Shown piece after piece: positions 5,523 through 12,078 of a DNA stretch of 12,173 nucleotides (its first letter is position 1; each line of letters starts with the position of its first letter). This stretch comes from Nitrososphaeraceae archaeon (GTDB taxonomy: Archaea; Thermoproteota; Nitrososphaeria; Nitrososphaerales; Nitrososphaeraceae): the NCBI GenBank assembly GCA_025922735.1, contig JAICHI010000020.1:1-12173 (forward strand), in the 5' to 3' direction. Both the position numbers and the translations under genes were made by a program. The notes under the pieces are model-generated. The model ran no database searches. It was given only the letters and a program-made list of their open reading frames with translations, and was not told the origin of the DNA.

Positions 5523-6269
5523 TTGCATTTCTGGGTAGGTTCGTTTTGTGGCATTCTCGATAGTAGCAGTAACAAACCTGCATTTCCAAGAAGAGCTATT
5601 GCTGCAACTGATGTTATAGCATTAGTTGAAGACGTAGGCAACCAAATACCGGATAAATCATGGATGCTTTATTTGCTTGAATTATTCAATAAGCAGCAGA
5701 ATATTGCAATTGAACTAAACCTTATCTGCCAGTTCGATAGCCAGAATTACTTTGAAGCTATATTTAACGGTGTAAATAGATACAGATTCAAAGAAGTATT
5801 ACCCATACTTGGCCACTCGTACCTCCGTCAAATAATCATGAATTCACAAAAAGAATGCATTAGTTACCTTCTACAGGATAGAAATACAAAGCAAATAGAA
5901 AGGTTTGATCTACGTTTGAACATCGGAAGGGAATTATCATTTGCTTTTGAAGCATCAAACCAATTTACTGGAATAGAATGGTGGAATAAAATCGGTAACT
6001 TTCCATACCAAATAAGATATGATGTGCAAATATCACAGCTTATGTATGGTCTGTCAGATAATAGTAATAATCCTTCAGACTCTGAATACATGGTCTATCT
6101 ACCATATAACACATTAATGCCAAATAGCGAAGGATCAAGTTTACGGTATCCAATTTCATTCCATAATCCCAGAATCGAATCTGGTTGTATCTGTTATAAT
6201 GTTAAGCCAGGTATTTGCGAAAGCGGCATGAAATATATTTCCTTTGCAAAGAATAATAATAATAATTGA
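5523..6269 (+). CDS. Uncharacterised 248-residue protein, first gene of the PNGase-like pair
   Basis: The gene starts at TTG 5523 (MHFWVGSFCGILD); an in-frame TAA at 5508-5510 and no ATG nearby support this start. The product is soluble with no signal peptide or membrane helix. Notable stretches are AFPRRAIAATDVIALVEDVG (about 20-39), a Tyr/Arg-rich middle (YRFKEVLPILGHSYLRQI), FTGIEWWNKIGNFPYQIRY and a C-terminal Cys group (SGCICYNVKPGICESG), ending in five asparagines. The many aromatic and polar residues in alternating stretches suggest a beta-rich domain, which is inference. I do not recognise the family. It ends 54 bases before the PNGase-like gene with no terminator between, so the two are probably one transcript and may act together. 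Confidence 0.75.
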   Translation: MHFWVGSFCGILDSSSNKPAFPRRAIAATDVIALVEDVGNQIPDKSWMLYLLELFNKQQNIAIELNLICQFDSQNYFEAIFNGVNRYRFKEVLPILGHSYLRQIIMNSQKECISYLLQDRNTKQIERFDLRLNIGRELSFAFEASNQFTGIEWWNKIGNFPYQIRYDVQISQLMYGLSDNSNNPSDSEYMVYLPYNTLMPNSEGSSLRYPISFHNPRIESGCICYNVKPGICESGMKYISFAKNNNNN

Positions 6270-6311: not shown

Positions 6312-6317
6312 GAGGAG
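6312..6317 (+). promoter_or_regulatory. Shine-Dalgarno site for the PNGase-like gene
   Basis: GAGGAG lies six bases before ATG 6324. Internal genes of archaeal operons often carry such a site, which supports both this start and co-transcription with the gene upstream. Confidence 0.7.
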
Positions 6318-6323
6318 AATGTC

Positions 6324-7142
6324 ATGCTAGGTTGCAGCGGCTCTCTATTTGGCCTGTCTTCTTCTGATCCATTGAAAGATACTTTTTTGCTTTATAAGAA
6401 AGTCACAGAACAGTATGGAAACCCAGAGATTCTGAGGATAATTAGATCATTAATACCGCAAGATATTGTTTTGCAAACAACAACAACAAAGGATGATGGC
6501 TGGAATATTGTACCTTTATTGATATGGTTCAAAAATGACTTTATGAAATGGACTCCAAAAGATCCTGTCTGTGAAATGTGCATGGATAGAAGTGATGATC
6601 AAAGTAATGTTATCGAGGGCTGTAGTAATGATAGGTCGGTATCAGCAGCGGCACCAATAATGTCAGTTAAAAAAATAATAATAGGAAACTCATGGAAGAT
6701 GCGCAAATTAGAACTCTTTATCTGTAACAGCTGTAACTATGAATATGCTTTTCCTAGATATGGCGAAATCCTAAAGATCGCAGAAACCAAAACCGGAAGA
6801 TGCAGCGAATGGTCCATGCTTTTTGGAGCTATGTTAAGTAGTTTAGGAATAAAAACAAGAATTGTACACGACTTCCTTGACCATTGCTGGAATGAGGCTA
6901 TGCTTTCTTATCCAGAAGGTGAACAATGGGTACATGTAGATTCTACTTTAGATTATCCGATCTCACTAAACCACCCTTATCATTATGAAGAAAATTGGGC
7001 AAAAGATTATGAATATGTGCTGGCTTTTACTGCAGATAGGGTAGAAGACGTCACTCAAACATACACGCTAAAATGGGAATCTATACAGCAACGAAGATTG
7101 AATAAAAAGAAGGCAATAGATTTTCCAAAGGTTTATTCATAG
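6324..7142 (+). CDS. Peptide:N-glycanase (Png1/NGLY1)-like transglutaminase-fold protein
   Basis: Probable member of the Png1/NGLY1 group of the transglutaminase fold, which in eukaryotes cleaves N-glycans from asparagine of misfolded glycoproteins in the cytosol. The 272-residue protein carries the family layout: WFKNDFMKW; a zinc site made by C83/C86 (CEMC) and C134/C137 (CNSC); the linking FPRYGE; then the catalytic triad C160 in GRCSEW, H187 in DHCWNEA and D206 in WVHVDS. C160 to H187 is 27 residues, the same as in yeast Png1 and human NGLY1 as I recall them. The end also fits (YEYVLAF, DRVEDVTQTY, then basic QQRR). The PUB and PAW domains of the animal enzyme are absent, as in yeast Png1. 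Residues 1-60 and a Ser/Asp-rich insert at ~88-120 are unfamiliar. No signal peptide, so it acts inside the cell. The true substrate is unknown; another peptidase or amidase role is possible. Confidence 0.88.
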   Translation: MLGCSGSLFGLSSSDPLKDTFLLYKKVTEQYGNPEILRIIRSLIPQDIVLQTTTTKDDGWNIVPLLIWFKNDFMKWTPKDPVCEMCMDRSDDQSNVIEGCSNDRSVSAAAPIMSVKKIIIGNSWKMRKLELFICNSCNYEYAFPRYGEILKIAETKTGRCSEWSMLFGAMLSSLGIKTRIVHDFLDHCWNEAMLSYPEGEQWVHVDSTLDYPISLNHPYHYEENWAKDYEYVLAFTADRVEDVTQTYTLKWESIQQRRLNKKKAIDFPKVYS

Positions 7143-8322: not shown

Positions 8323-9867
8323 ATGACAAATCAAACATCAAACTCTTTGCAACAAGAAGATTCGAATCTATTTTTCATGAAAGCAGACAAGTTTCTTGAA
8401 AATACAACAGAATATGTTCATCTTGGCATAAACCCTGGCGACTATTACAAGGCTATATGGACGAGAGATGCAGCATTTATACTTAAGGATCAGTTTCTTA
8501 CTGGAGATACCTATAACGTTCTAAGGTCGTTGTATTTTATCTGGACACATCAAATCGATCTGAATGATGAAAAAGTAATCTATGGAAGAGGGTCGCCTGA
8601 ATTAAGATTCAGTATCAGTACTGCAGATAGAGAAACAAAAGAAAGATTTAGGGGCGCTCTTCCCTCAACCATATATCATAGACATGGTTTCTCTGAAGTT
8701 TATGCACGGAATCCTGATATAGATTCCACTGCCTTGATGATATCTACTACTTCTTGGATTTTGGATGTATATCTCAAAGCAGGGCTTTACTCTTACTATG
8801 AAAACTTGCAAGAGTGGGCCTCTATATCATCCTCTCTCGATCCATCATTTCTTCCAGAGTCCGCAGCAAATCCACTGTCGTCTGCAGATTATTACAAGAA
8901 ACAAAAATCATCACTTGTTACTGCACCATACAATCCTCCATTAGAGATCATACCAAGGCCTATAGAATTGATAGAATTTCTTGTACCCCGGATGCTTTCT
9001 GCACTTGATTATCTTAGAAGCCGGGATATAGATAATGATGGGCTGCTTGAACAAGGATATAATGAAGATTGGATGGATACTGCACTCCGTGCAGGCAAGA
9101 TAGTCTACAGTCAGGCATCTTGGATATTGGCTGTTAGTAACCTTTCATCATTGCTTTATGAAATTGATCATAAGCCTATGGCAAGGAAGCTGATGGCAAT
9201 GGCAGAGAAAACAGTGAATGCTGTAGAGGAAAAGCTCTGGTCGGAAGAGGACGGTGCATATATTGATCTTTACAATGGAGCAAATGACACACTAAGTAGT
9301 TACAATCAATATAACAAAGGAAAAAGGATGTTGACTCAGGACACCTCGCTTTATCTTGTTTCAATAACTGAAAATACATTTAATGACATTCTAGGCATGC
9401 GCTTTAACCGCGATAATGATGGTGGTATCGATAATCTAGCAGCAGCAAATAAAAGGAAAAAACAGAGTAGTCAGCTTGAAGCTCCGAAGAAGTTCCTAGA
9501 ACAAAGGGCCTCAAGCACTTTAGCAGCCCTCAAGGATCGAGTATGGCTGGATAGCAGATGGCCGTTAGTTACAGAAAAGGAATGGGAAAGAACCGGTCCT
9601 TGGCATTTGGATTCAAACCAATATCATAACCACACATTCTGGCCTTGGATAACTGGCATTGAGATGCTTGCAAGAAGCAGGTTTAAGAGATACAGAGAGT
9701 GTAATGAGCTCCTTTCCATACTTACCCAAGGAAACCATCCACAAACACTTGCTTTTTATGAATGGATAAATCCTAAGACAGGGGGAGGGCATGGAGCCTT
9801 TCCATTTAGGACTGGCATTTCCACAATAAGGGTGGCATTAACTGATGTTATGCTTTCTAGACTTTAA
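8323..9867 (+). CDS. Six-hairpin glycoside hydrolase, related to glycogen-debranching enzyme C-domain
   Basis: Predicted glycosidase with an (alpha/alpha)6 barrel, 514 residues. Marks are YYKAIWTRDAAF (D49), a D-x-D-GLLEQGYNEDWMDT segment (D249, D252) that matches the GL...WMDA block of amylo-alpha-1,6-glucosidase domains, HNHTFWPWITG (435-445) corresponding to the conserved H-x-x-x-WPW region, and EWINPKTGGGHGAFPFRTG near the C-terminus. No signal peptide, so it is probably cytoplasmic and acts on an alpha-glucan or disaccharide. Which Asp/Glu are catalytic cannot be fixed by eye, and a GH15 or GH100-like specificity is also possible. A Lys/Ser-rich insert (~373-390, ANKRKKQSSQLEAPKK) looks like a surface loop. 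ATG 8323 is the first residue of a plausible N-terminus. No carbohydrate transporter or other sugar gene is adjacent. Confidence 0.8.
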   Translation: MTNQTSNSLQQEDSNLFFMKADKFLENTTEYVHLGINPGDYYKAIWTRDAAFILKDQFLTGDTYNVLRSLYFIWTHQIDLNDEKVIYGRGSPELRFSISTADRETKERFRGALPSTIYHRHGFSEVYARNPDIDSTALMISTTSWILDVYLKAGLYSYYENLQEWASISSSLDPSFLPESAANPLSSADYYKKQKSSLVTAPYNPPLEIIPRPIELIEFLVPRMLSALDYLRSRDIDNDGLLEQGYNEDWMDTALRAGKIVYSQASWILAVSNLSSLLYEIDHKPMARKLMAMAEKTVNAVEEKLWSEEDGAYIDLYNGANDTLSSYNQYNKGKRMLTQDTSLYLVSITENTFNDILGMRFNRDNDGGIDNLAAANKRKKQSSQLEAPKKFLEQRASSTLAALKDRVWLDSRWPLVTEKEWERTGPWHLDSNQYHNHTFWPWITGIEMLARSRFKRYRECNELLSILTQGNHPQTLAFYEWINPKTGGGHGAFPFRTGISTIRVALTDVMLSRL

Positions 9868-11732: not shown

Positions 11733-11876
11733 ATGATCAAATTGGCTACCAATGTTACCCTGCCCTCTGGTCCATATCCGCTCTGCGTGAAGTGTAATGT
11801 AGGCACGATGTTGCCAAAATATAGTCATGATATAGGTATTTTCTGGCATTGTAGCAAATGTGACAACCAGATATAA
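11733..11876 (+). CDS. 47-residue zinc-ribbon-like protein
   Basis: From ATG 11733 the frame reads MIKLATNVTLPSGPYP, then LCVKC (C18, C21), about 18 residues, then HCSKC (C40, C43) and a short tail. Two CxxC knuckles separated by 18 residues are the standard zinc-ribbon layout. The frame is closed by a stop a few codons upstream (TAA at 11715-11717), so the start is well placed. The protein could bind nucleic acid or another protein. It is 55 bases ahead of the next small Cys protein. Confidence 0.6.
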   Translation: MIKLATNVTLPSGPYPLCVKCNVGTMLPKYSHDIGIFWHCSKCDNQI

Positions 11877-11931
11877 TCTAGCCCTATCCTGCTTGATAGA
11901 CACAACTAATCCTTTTATTGAATGTGATGAA

Positions 11932-12078
11932 ATGAAGAGAGTAAGTATGCCATCGAGCGAAATTCTGTATTGTAAAATATGTGGAAGGCGATTTGAAACT
12001 ATTGAATCCCTTCAAGAACATCTGATGGCAGAAAAAGAAGACCAGGAACTCCGAAACAAAGGTTTCGATGATGGCTAA
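11932..12078 (+). CDS. 48-residue C2H2-like single zinc finger protein
   Basis: Starts at ATG 11932 (MKRVSMPSSEILYC); the in-frame ATG at 11947 is an alternative favoured by the CTTTTATTG element about 30 bases before it. The finger is C14-x2-C17-x12-H30 with the expected F21 and L27 (CKICGRRFETIESLQEH). The usual second His is missing: HLMAEKEDQEL follows. It may use another ligand or be a degenerate finger. An acidic tail (GFDDG) ends the protein. The stop overlaps the start of the next gene, suggesting translational coupling. Confidence 0.68.
   Translation: MKRVSMPSSEILYCKICGRRFETIESLQEHLMAEKEDQELRNKGFDDG

Follow-up and report, generated by a model that had tools for sequence, protein, structure and literature searches.

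A candidate peptide:N-glycanase of the Png1/NGLY1 type in archaea of the family Nitrososphaeraceae

Eukaryotic cells have a Png1-type enzyme that removes the sugar chains of faulty proteins, and this enzyme is coupled to Rad23 and the proteasome. In the chemistry of the peptide:N-glycanases (PNGases), the glycan is cut off with release of ammonia. Rad23 is not known from archaea. PNGases have been reviewed from bacteria to mammals, the prokaryotic example being PNGase F, whose fold is unrelated (PMC9102325), and according to another review, the Png1 type is conserved in eukaryotes (PMC8997433). Among the matches listed in our literature search, no title or opening abstract described an archaeal Png1-type enzyme, most subscription papers lying outside the coverage, and in the papers found that mention both PNGase and Thaumarchaeota, the relevant passages concern PNGase F. 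The classic superfamily papers of Makarova and of Anantharaman reportedly place archaeal proteins in the same superfamily, to go by their titles. We analyzed a stretch of 12,173 nucleotides (the window; contig JAICHI010000020.1 of assembly GCA_025922735.1) from a soil archaeon of the family Nitrososphaeraceae. An open reading frame (ORF) on its forward strand, with its ATG at 6324 and its stop codon ending at 7142, encodes 272 residues, and its resemblance to Png1 is, by sequence comparison, far beyond chance. On balance, this gene probably encodes a cytosolic PNGase of the Png1/NGLY1 type and represents an archaeal branch of the family, with deglycosylation as its most likely activity.

The assignment was carried by searches against PDB chains. 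With phmmer, three distinct sequences were matched up to an E value of 1, and all three were PNGases (mouse, 1.9e-27; yeast, 8.1e-25 and 9.8e-25). A profile of 16 archaeal relatives found PNGases at 6e-41, 2.4e-38, and 3e-38, and the next entries stood at 0.012 and 0.082. The preliminary description of the window had placed the ORF in the Png1/NGLY1 group rather than among generic transglutaminases or proteases and had named a profile search beforehand as a possible refutation; the best profile matches were PNGases, with no unrelated transglutaminase or protease family among them, and the phmmer, profile, and fold matches all uphold that placement. The Pfam model of the general transglutaminase core, PF01841, was matched with 54.3 bits (cut-off 23), and the NCBIfam model rad4 gave only a weak match (23.8 vs. 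a cut-off of 400). Residues 14-272 share their core fold with Png1 according to the sequence profile and a model-based comparison. The predicted model has N- and C-terminal helices, and the best 19-residue hydropathy mean of 1.04 argues against a membrane helix. Seven positions (C83, C86, C134, C137, C160, H187, and D206) were invariant columns in the alignment of 16 archaeal sequences, and they were likewise invariant in all 31 aligned archaeal rows, the window included. Comparisons of sequence and modeled fold establish the membership in Png1, the intact predicted triad, the zinc-type Cys pairs, and the conservation in two families of the order. The motifs picked out in the preliminary description (C83/C86, C134/C137, FPRYGE, C160, H187, D206, YVLAF, and DVTQTY) all lie at the positions that it had named. 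The features of the gene are as follows.

6324..7142, + strand: Png1-type peptide:N-glycanase-like gene, 272 residues (ORF and homology searches)
6312..6317, + strand: GAGGAG, a possible ribosome binding site upstream of the ATG (direct sequence reading)
6570..6581, + strand: first CxxC pair (C83, C86) of the predicted zinc module, aligned with Cys of mouse and yeast Png1 and present in 31/31 archaeal rows
6582..6680, + strand: long polar loop between the CxxC pairs, of partly low model confidence and much shorter in most aligned relatives
6723..6734, + strand: second CxxC pair (C134, C137; alignment)
6750..6767, + strand: FPRYGE block (residues 143-148), aligned with FPRY of mouse and yeast Png1
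6801..6803, + strand: C160 in GRCSEW, the predicted nucleophile (alignment)
6858..6860, + strand: R179, a conserved residue equivalent to R229 of Dictyostelium PNGase (alignment; PMC3502110)
6882..6896, + strand: H187, the predicted catalytic His in DHCWNEA, with conserved W189 and E191 (alignment; PMC3502110)
6927..6941, + strand: W202 to D206, a conserved Trp and the predicted catalytic Asp (WVHVDS; alignment)
6942..6965, + strand: STLDYPIS loop, which has three residues more than its counterpart in mouse and yeast, with Leu/Phe in place of the Glu of these two and of the minimal form (alignment)
7014..7064, + strand: YVLAF and DVTQTY blocks, common to Png1 (phmmer and profile matches, alignment)

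The distance of 27 residues from Cys to His, also noted earlier, was found again in the window protein and is equal in mouse (C306/H333; PMC3502110). The His-to-Asp distance is 19 residues in the window protein and 17 in mouse (D350; PMC3502110), whereas most archaeal relatives have 15; the window protein exceeds most of its relatives because it has four extra residues there. With the Png1/NGLY1 structures of mouse (2f4m) and yeast (1x3w, 3esw), the archaeal proteins share the core fold, the two CxxC pairs, FPRY, the triad, the Cys-His spacing, the conserved Arg/Trp/Glu/Trp, and the AF and DVT end blocks, but they have Leu or Phe where the others have Glu, and a loop that is three residues longer. 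No PUB or PAW domain was found in the window protein by Pfam at E 0.1; yeast Png1 likewise consists of the core only, without PUB/PAW (PMC3502110). The animal transglutaminases (factor XIII, TG2, and TG3) belong to the same superfamily (PF01841), and a classical transglutaminase was rejected because the animal enzymes were not the closest match by phmmer, profile, or fold comparison. Rad4/XPC has an inactive domain without the triad, together with further DNA-binding domains. In contrast, the archaeal proteins have the complete triad, and 272 residues are too short for the DNA-binding domains; an inactive Rad4-like protein was rejected because the triad is invariant. PNGase F of Flavobacterium meningosepticum carries out the same reaction as that predicted here, but with an unrelated fold of two eight-stranded beta sandwiches with acidic residues (PMC9102325), also described as a double jelly roll (PMC8812541).

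Genome searches covered the phylum of the window. With the window protein as query, 19 of the 37 family genomes that are at least 90 percent complete gave a match, as did 10 of the 12 genera. Over the whole family 34 genomes matched; the copies were open in 31 of them (some cut by a contig end) and broken in three (G067, G068, and G075). Genome G088 carries three copies, which together with the broken ones point to gain and loss. A profile search over 250 genomes of the order listed 39, including a 42-position fragment (G069) and a probable chance match (G109, E 6.9e-4), and it added three genomes of a second family, all of genus g48 (E 7.7e-96, 2.8e-97, and 1.4e-97). A contig scan of the genomes gave six loci, all from Nitrososphaeria, Nitrososphaerales, or Nitrososphaeraceae. 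Several carriers are single-contig genomes, among them those of 2,836,447, 2,989,777, and 3,430,706 bases, and some carriers are, we presume, cultured Nitrosocosmicus strains. A phage search gave no match at E 1e-3, and four candidate stretches in viral contigs held no relative. The plasmid search gave one match, which covers 39 percent of the query at 24 percent identity (E 7e-4) and which we regard as a generic transglutaminase.

A misbinned contig or an artefact of one genome is hardly credible as the source of the gene. Such an origin would fit the greater similarity of the window gene to G021 (67 percent) and G025 (63 percent), which belong to other genera, than to G007 of its own genus (50 percent). 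However, for two further genes on the contig the nearest relatives are of the window's own genus: G010 for the glycosidase-like gene (72 percent) and G012 and G010 for the antiporter gene (78 and 77 percent). The Png1-like family occurs in 34/70 genomes, and several of these genomes consist of a single contig. Eukaryotic contamination or misbinning was rejected on the basis of this distribution and of the same-genus affinity of the two genes, by which the contig belongs to its genus. Because the window gene is nearer to other genera, and relatives of the ORF upstream of it occur there too, the similarities indicate that the Png1-like gene has been gained, lost, or exchanged within the family.

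Besides the zinc-type proteins, two other families of the phylum have minimal Png1-like proteins (L066-L072), 159-169 residues long and devoid of CxxC pairs. Their alignment to the eukaryotic catalytic core is gap-free, and they keep the pocket Glu. The triad and residues R179, W189, E191, W202, Y221, and W225 are identical in the 31 archaeal zinc-type rows, in mouse and yeast, and in 7/7 minimal rows. Among these residues, R179, W189, E191, and W202 are, in 31/31 archaeal rows, the counterparts of R229, W239, E241, and W248 of Dictyostelium PNGase, which are conserved and possibly essential (PMC3502110). The zinc-type rows and the eukaryotes are separated from the other rows by W163 and the CxxC pairs; both pairs are present in 31/31 zinc-type rows and 0/7 minimal rows, and in yeast Png1 they form a zinc module (PMC9102325).

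Several observations weigh against an archaeal PNGase, and most of them favor its main rival, a cysteine enzyme of the Png1 fold that acts on a different substrate (as a protein deamidase, transglutaminase, or peptidase), which we judge rather unlikely. The triad, R179, W189, E191, W202, Y221, and W225 also occur in 4/4 outgroup transglutaminase-like rows, themselves found with a Png1-like profile; therefore, the triad and the conserved Arg/Trp/Glu/Trp are not specific to Png1. The residue at L209 sets the zinc-type archaeal rows apart from the eukaryotes: 28 of the 31 have Leu there and the other 3 Phe, against Glu in mouse, yeast, and 7/7 minimal rows, and the loop beside this site is the one that is longer by three residues. 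Zhao 2009 is said to have described the Glu at this site as a sugar contact in yeast Png1. Archaeal N-glycans are added outside the membrane, so that a cytosolic enzyme would need uptake or failed export of its substrates. The gene is patchy, being found in 34/70 genomes of the family and, with the genome of the window, in 2/18 of its own genus. It is also without a match in G014, probably Nitrososphaera viennensis, the species with the known chitobiose-type glycan. Nitrosocosmicus has no S-layer and maybe an amino-sugar-rich coat (PMC11559005), and the gene is present in probable Nitrosocosmicus. In addition, Arabidopsis Png1 has been reported with both transglutaminase and PNGase activity (PMC9102325). 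Against another substrate stands the match to Png1 over the whole length, CxxC pairs and end blocks included, which lies far above that to transglutaminases; moreover, no transglutaminase activity was lost on deletion of the Dictyostelium PNGase, and the same is stated for an Arabidopsis knockout (PMC3502110). The first sugar of the N. viennensis glycan has two N-acetyl groups (PMC12153357), and a different pocket may therefore not be surprising.

The N-glycosylation setting supposed in the preliminary description was found. The genome of the window encodes the oligosaccharyltransferase STT3/AglB, which is present in 61/70 family genomes including this one, and the S-layer protein of N. viennensis carries an N-linked hexasaccharide with a chitobiose-type core, proposed as a nitrogen store (PMC12153357). 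The organism presumably oxidizes ammonia, as its family membership implies. If the gene product is a PNGase, Cys160, activated by His187 with Asp206, would attack the amide linkage between Asn and the first N-glycan sugar. The sugar would depart as a glycosylamine, breaking down to sugar and ammonia, and water would free the peptide with Asp now in place of Asn; the zinc module would be structural. With less certainty, the substrates could be N-glycopeptides or unfolded pieces of glycoproteins that bear the local chitobiose-type core; the enzyme would meet them in the cytosol when they have been taken up or their export has failed, and the role could be glycan and nitrogen salvage or clean-up. 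An active enzyme would mean that archaeal N-glycans have a removal enzyme besides their assembly line. Assays on native glycoproteins may be feasible, some carriers being presumably cultured Nitrosocosmicus.

A tree was computed from 101 columns of the catalytic core and 44 rows. Removal of identical and nested copies had left 47 rows, from which two L044 pieces, the truncated L005, the truncated L075, and a stray L066 frame were dropped, and two eukaryotes were added. The 31 archaeal zinc-type rows, from two families, formed one clade (97/96), and the two eukaryotes stood outside it in a clade of their own (92/87). All that we conclude from this tree is that the archaeal genes were not copied recently from an opisthokont. 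Acquisition from a eukaryote, which the preliminary description had considered equally open, is thus disfavored, also by the neighboring gene that some members of both families have in common, and we regard horizontal transfer from a eukaryote as very unlikely. Such a transfer could account for the CxxC pairs, common with eukaryotes and absent from the minimal archaeal forms, and for the patchiness of the gene (34/70), and with two eukaryotic rows only, the archaeal clade could still lie inside eukaryotic diversity. Against it, the archaeal rows are one clade over two families with both eukaryotes outside, the adjacent transporter gene in members of both families suggests an old locus, and two other families of the phylum have the minimal relative, which lacks CxxC pairs.

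The opposite direction, in which an old archaeal enzyme gave rise to eukaryotic Png1 and was passed on through the eukaryotes' archaeal ancestor, is compatible with a PNGase function and appears to us quite possible, short of probable. In the tree the eukaryotes joined the zinc-type archaea and not the minimal forms at 84/51, which is kept as weak, and chitobiose-core N-glycans occur in Thermoproteota, Nitrososphaerota, and eukaryotes (PMC12153357; PMC8993221). However, this grouping hangs on one long outgroup row, with a long-branch warning; a tree forced to unite the eukaryotes with the minimal forms is 14.4 log units worse and is not rejected (p-AU, approximately unbiased test, 0.09). The genomes covered include no Asgard, and the pocket Glu ties the eukaryotes to the minimal form instead. 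We offer as a doubtful conjecture that an old salvage module of the Thermoproteota, made up of a Png1-type amidase and, in some lineages, a transporter, and serving glycopeptide uptake, glycan release, and the recycling of nitrogen-rich sugar and ammonia in a cell that lives on ammonia, was later turned to eukaryotic quality control, the zinc module having been added to a core of ~165 residues before eukaryotes. With relatives in many related archaea, an archaeal root of the eukaryotic enzyme becomes testable at the bench, and if the archaeal proteins are active, the origin of the human disease enzyme NGLY1 could be studied with small archaeal proteins, including the minimal form without the zinc-type Cys pairs.

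Among 21 neighborhoods of Png1-like genes that were compared, the commonest neighbor was an MFS transporter gene; five of them (G020, G007, G208, G219, and G247) have it in tail-to-tail orientation.

L082:8612-9961, L087:8571-10079, L094:8519-9487, L095:8927-9961, and L096:6711-7673: MFS transporter genes from both families, arranged tail to tail with the Png1-like gene

Another family came up in four neighborhoods, and several more reached three, to which the shared surroundings of the three g48 genomes contribute. Compared across the two families, the transporter proteins have 45-53 percent identity, and they match Pfam MFS_1; NCBIfam gave matches below the cut-off only and does not indicate a cargo. 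In 22 genomes, of which 19 were chosen as carriers of the Png1-like gene and three (G144, G010, and G014) as noncarriers, transporter homologs (E below 1e-50) were found in six, always beside a Png1-like gene if the minimal form of G482 is counted. The carriers G000, G018, G028, G029, G036, and G062 have no such transporter in this test; as most tested carriers lack it, the transporter is not required. In a search that scored at most four candidates per genome, 48 of 398 sampled genomes of the phylum matched a relative of the transporter at 1e-35, those of the order being only G020, G208, and G219. Within the order, the transporter adjoins the Png1-like gene in 5/5 cases found, and this is the only linkage that we regard as firm. 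Beside the minimal form, a related transporter gene begins ~20 bases after the Png1-like gene in G482 (L109:5523-7299), a 44-residue transporter piece (66 percent identical) follows it in G301 (L107:6260-6391), and a more distant transporter (25 percent) lies ~1 kb upstream in G504. No transporter was found in the minimal-form neighborhoods of G351, G551, G341, G325, and G381. This linkage is not firm because relatives of the transporter are common in those lineages (48/398 at E 1e-35).

Directly upstream of the Png1-like gene in the window lies an uncharacterized ORF.

5523..6269, + strand: uncharacterized ORF directly upstream of the Png1-like gene, with relatives upstream in G021 and G025 too

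It has no hit in Pfam, NCBIfam, or PHROGs, and its best PDB match has E 0.58. Its relatives lie directly upstream in G021, where the contig starts inside the relative, and in G025, where it is in pieces in two frames; in G020 a relative lies ~5 kb from the Png1-like gene. A functional pairing was rejected, since the family occurs in 49/70 genomes and, in the remaining places listed, on other contigs or at a distance. The ORF is probably a hitchhiker that marks a shared locus. Pairing with the downstream glycosidase-like gene (8323-9867) was also rejected: homologs occur in 31/70 genomes, the nearest homolog to a Png1-like gene, among the matches listed and the window aside, lying ~17 kb away in G018. 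An empty-site comparison with G010 showed no more than two genes in common between the stretches: the glycosidase gene and, at another place, the antiporter gene. The glycosidase-like protein shows weak GH116, GDE_C, and MGH1-like signals under the cut-off, and some relatives have several copies. The ORF at 3644-3970 matches only the middle (positions 99-183 of 258) of a malic enzyme NAD-binding domain and is perhaps a broken gene. A small protein with a C2H2-like zinc finger is encoded at 11860-12078.
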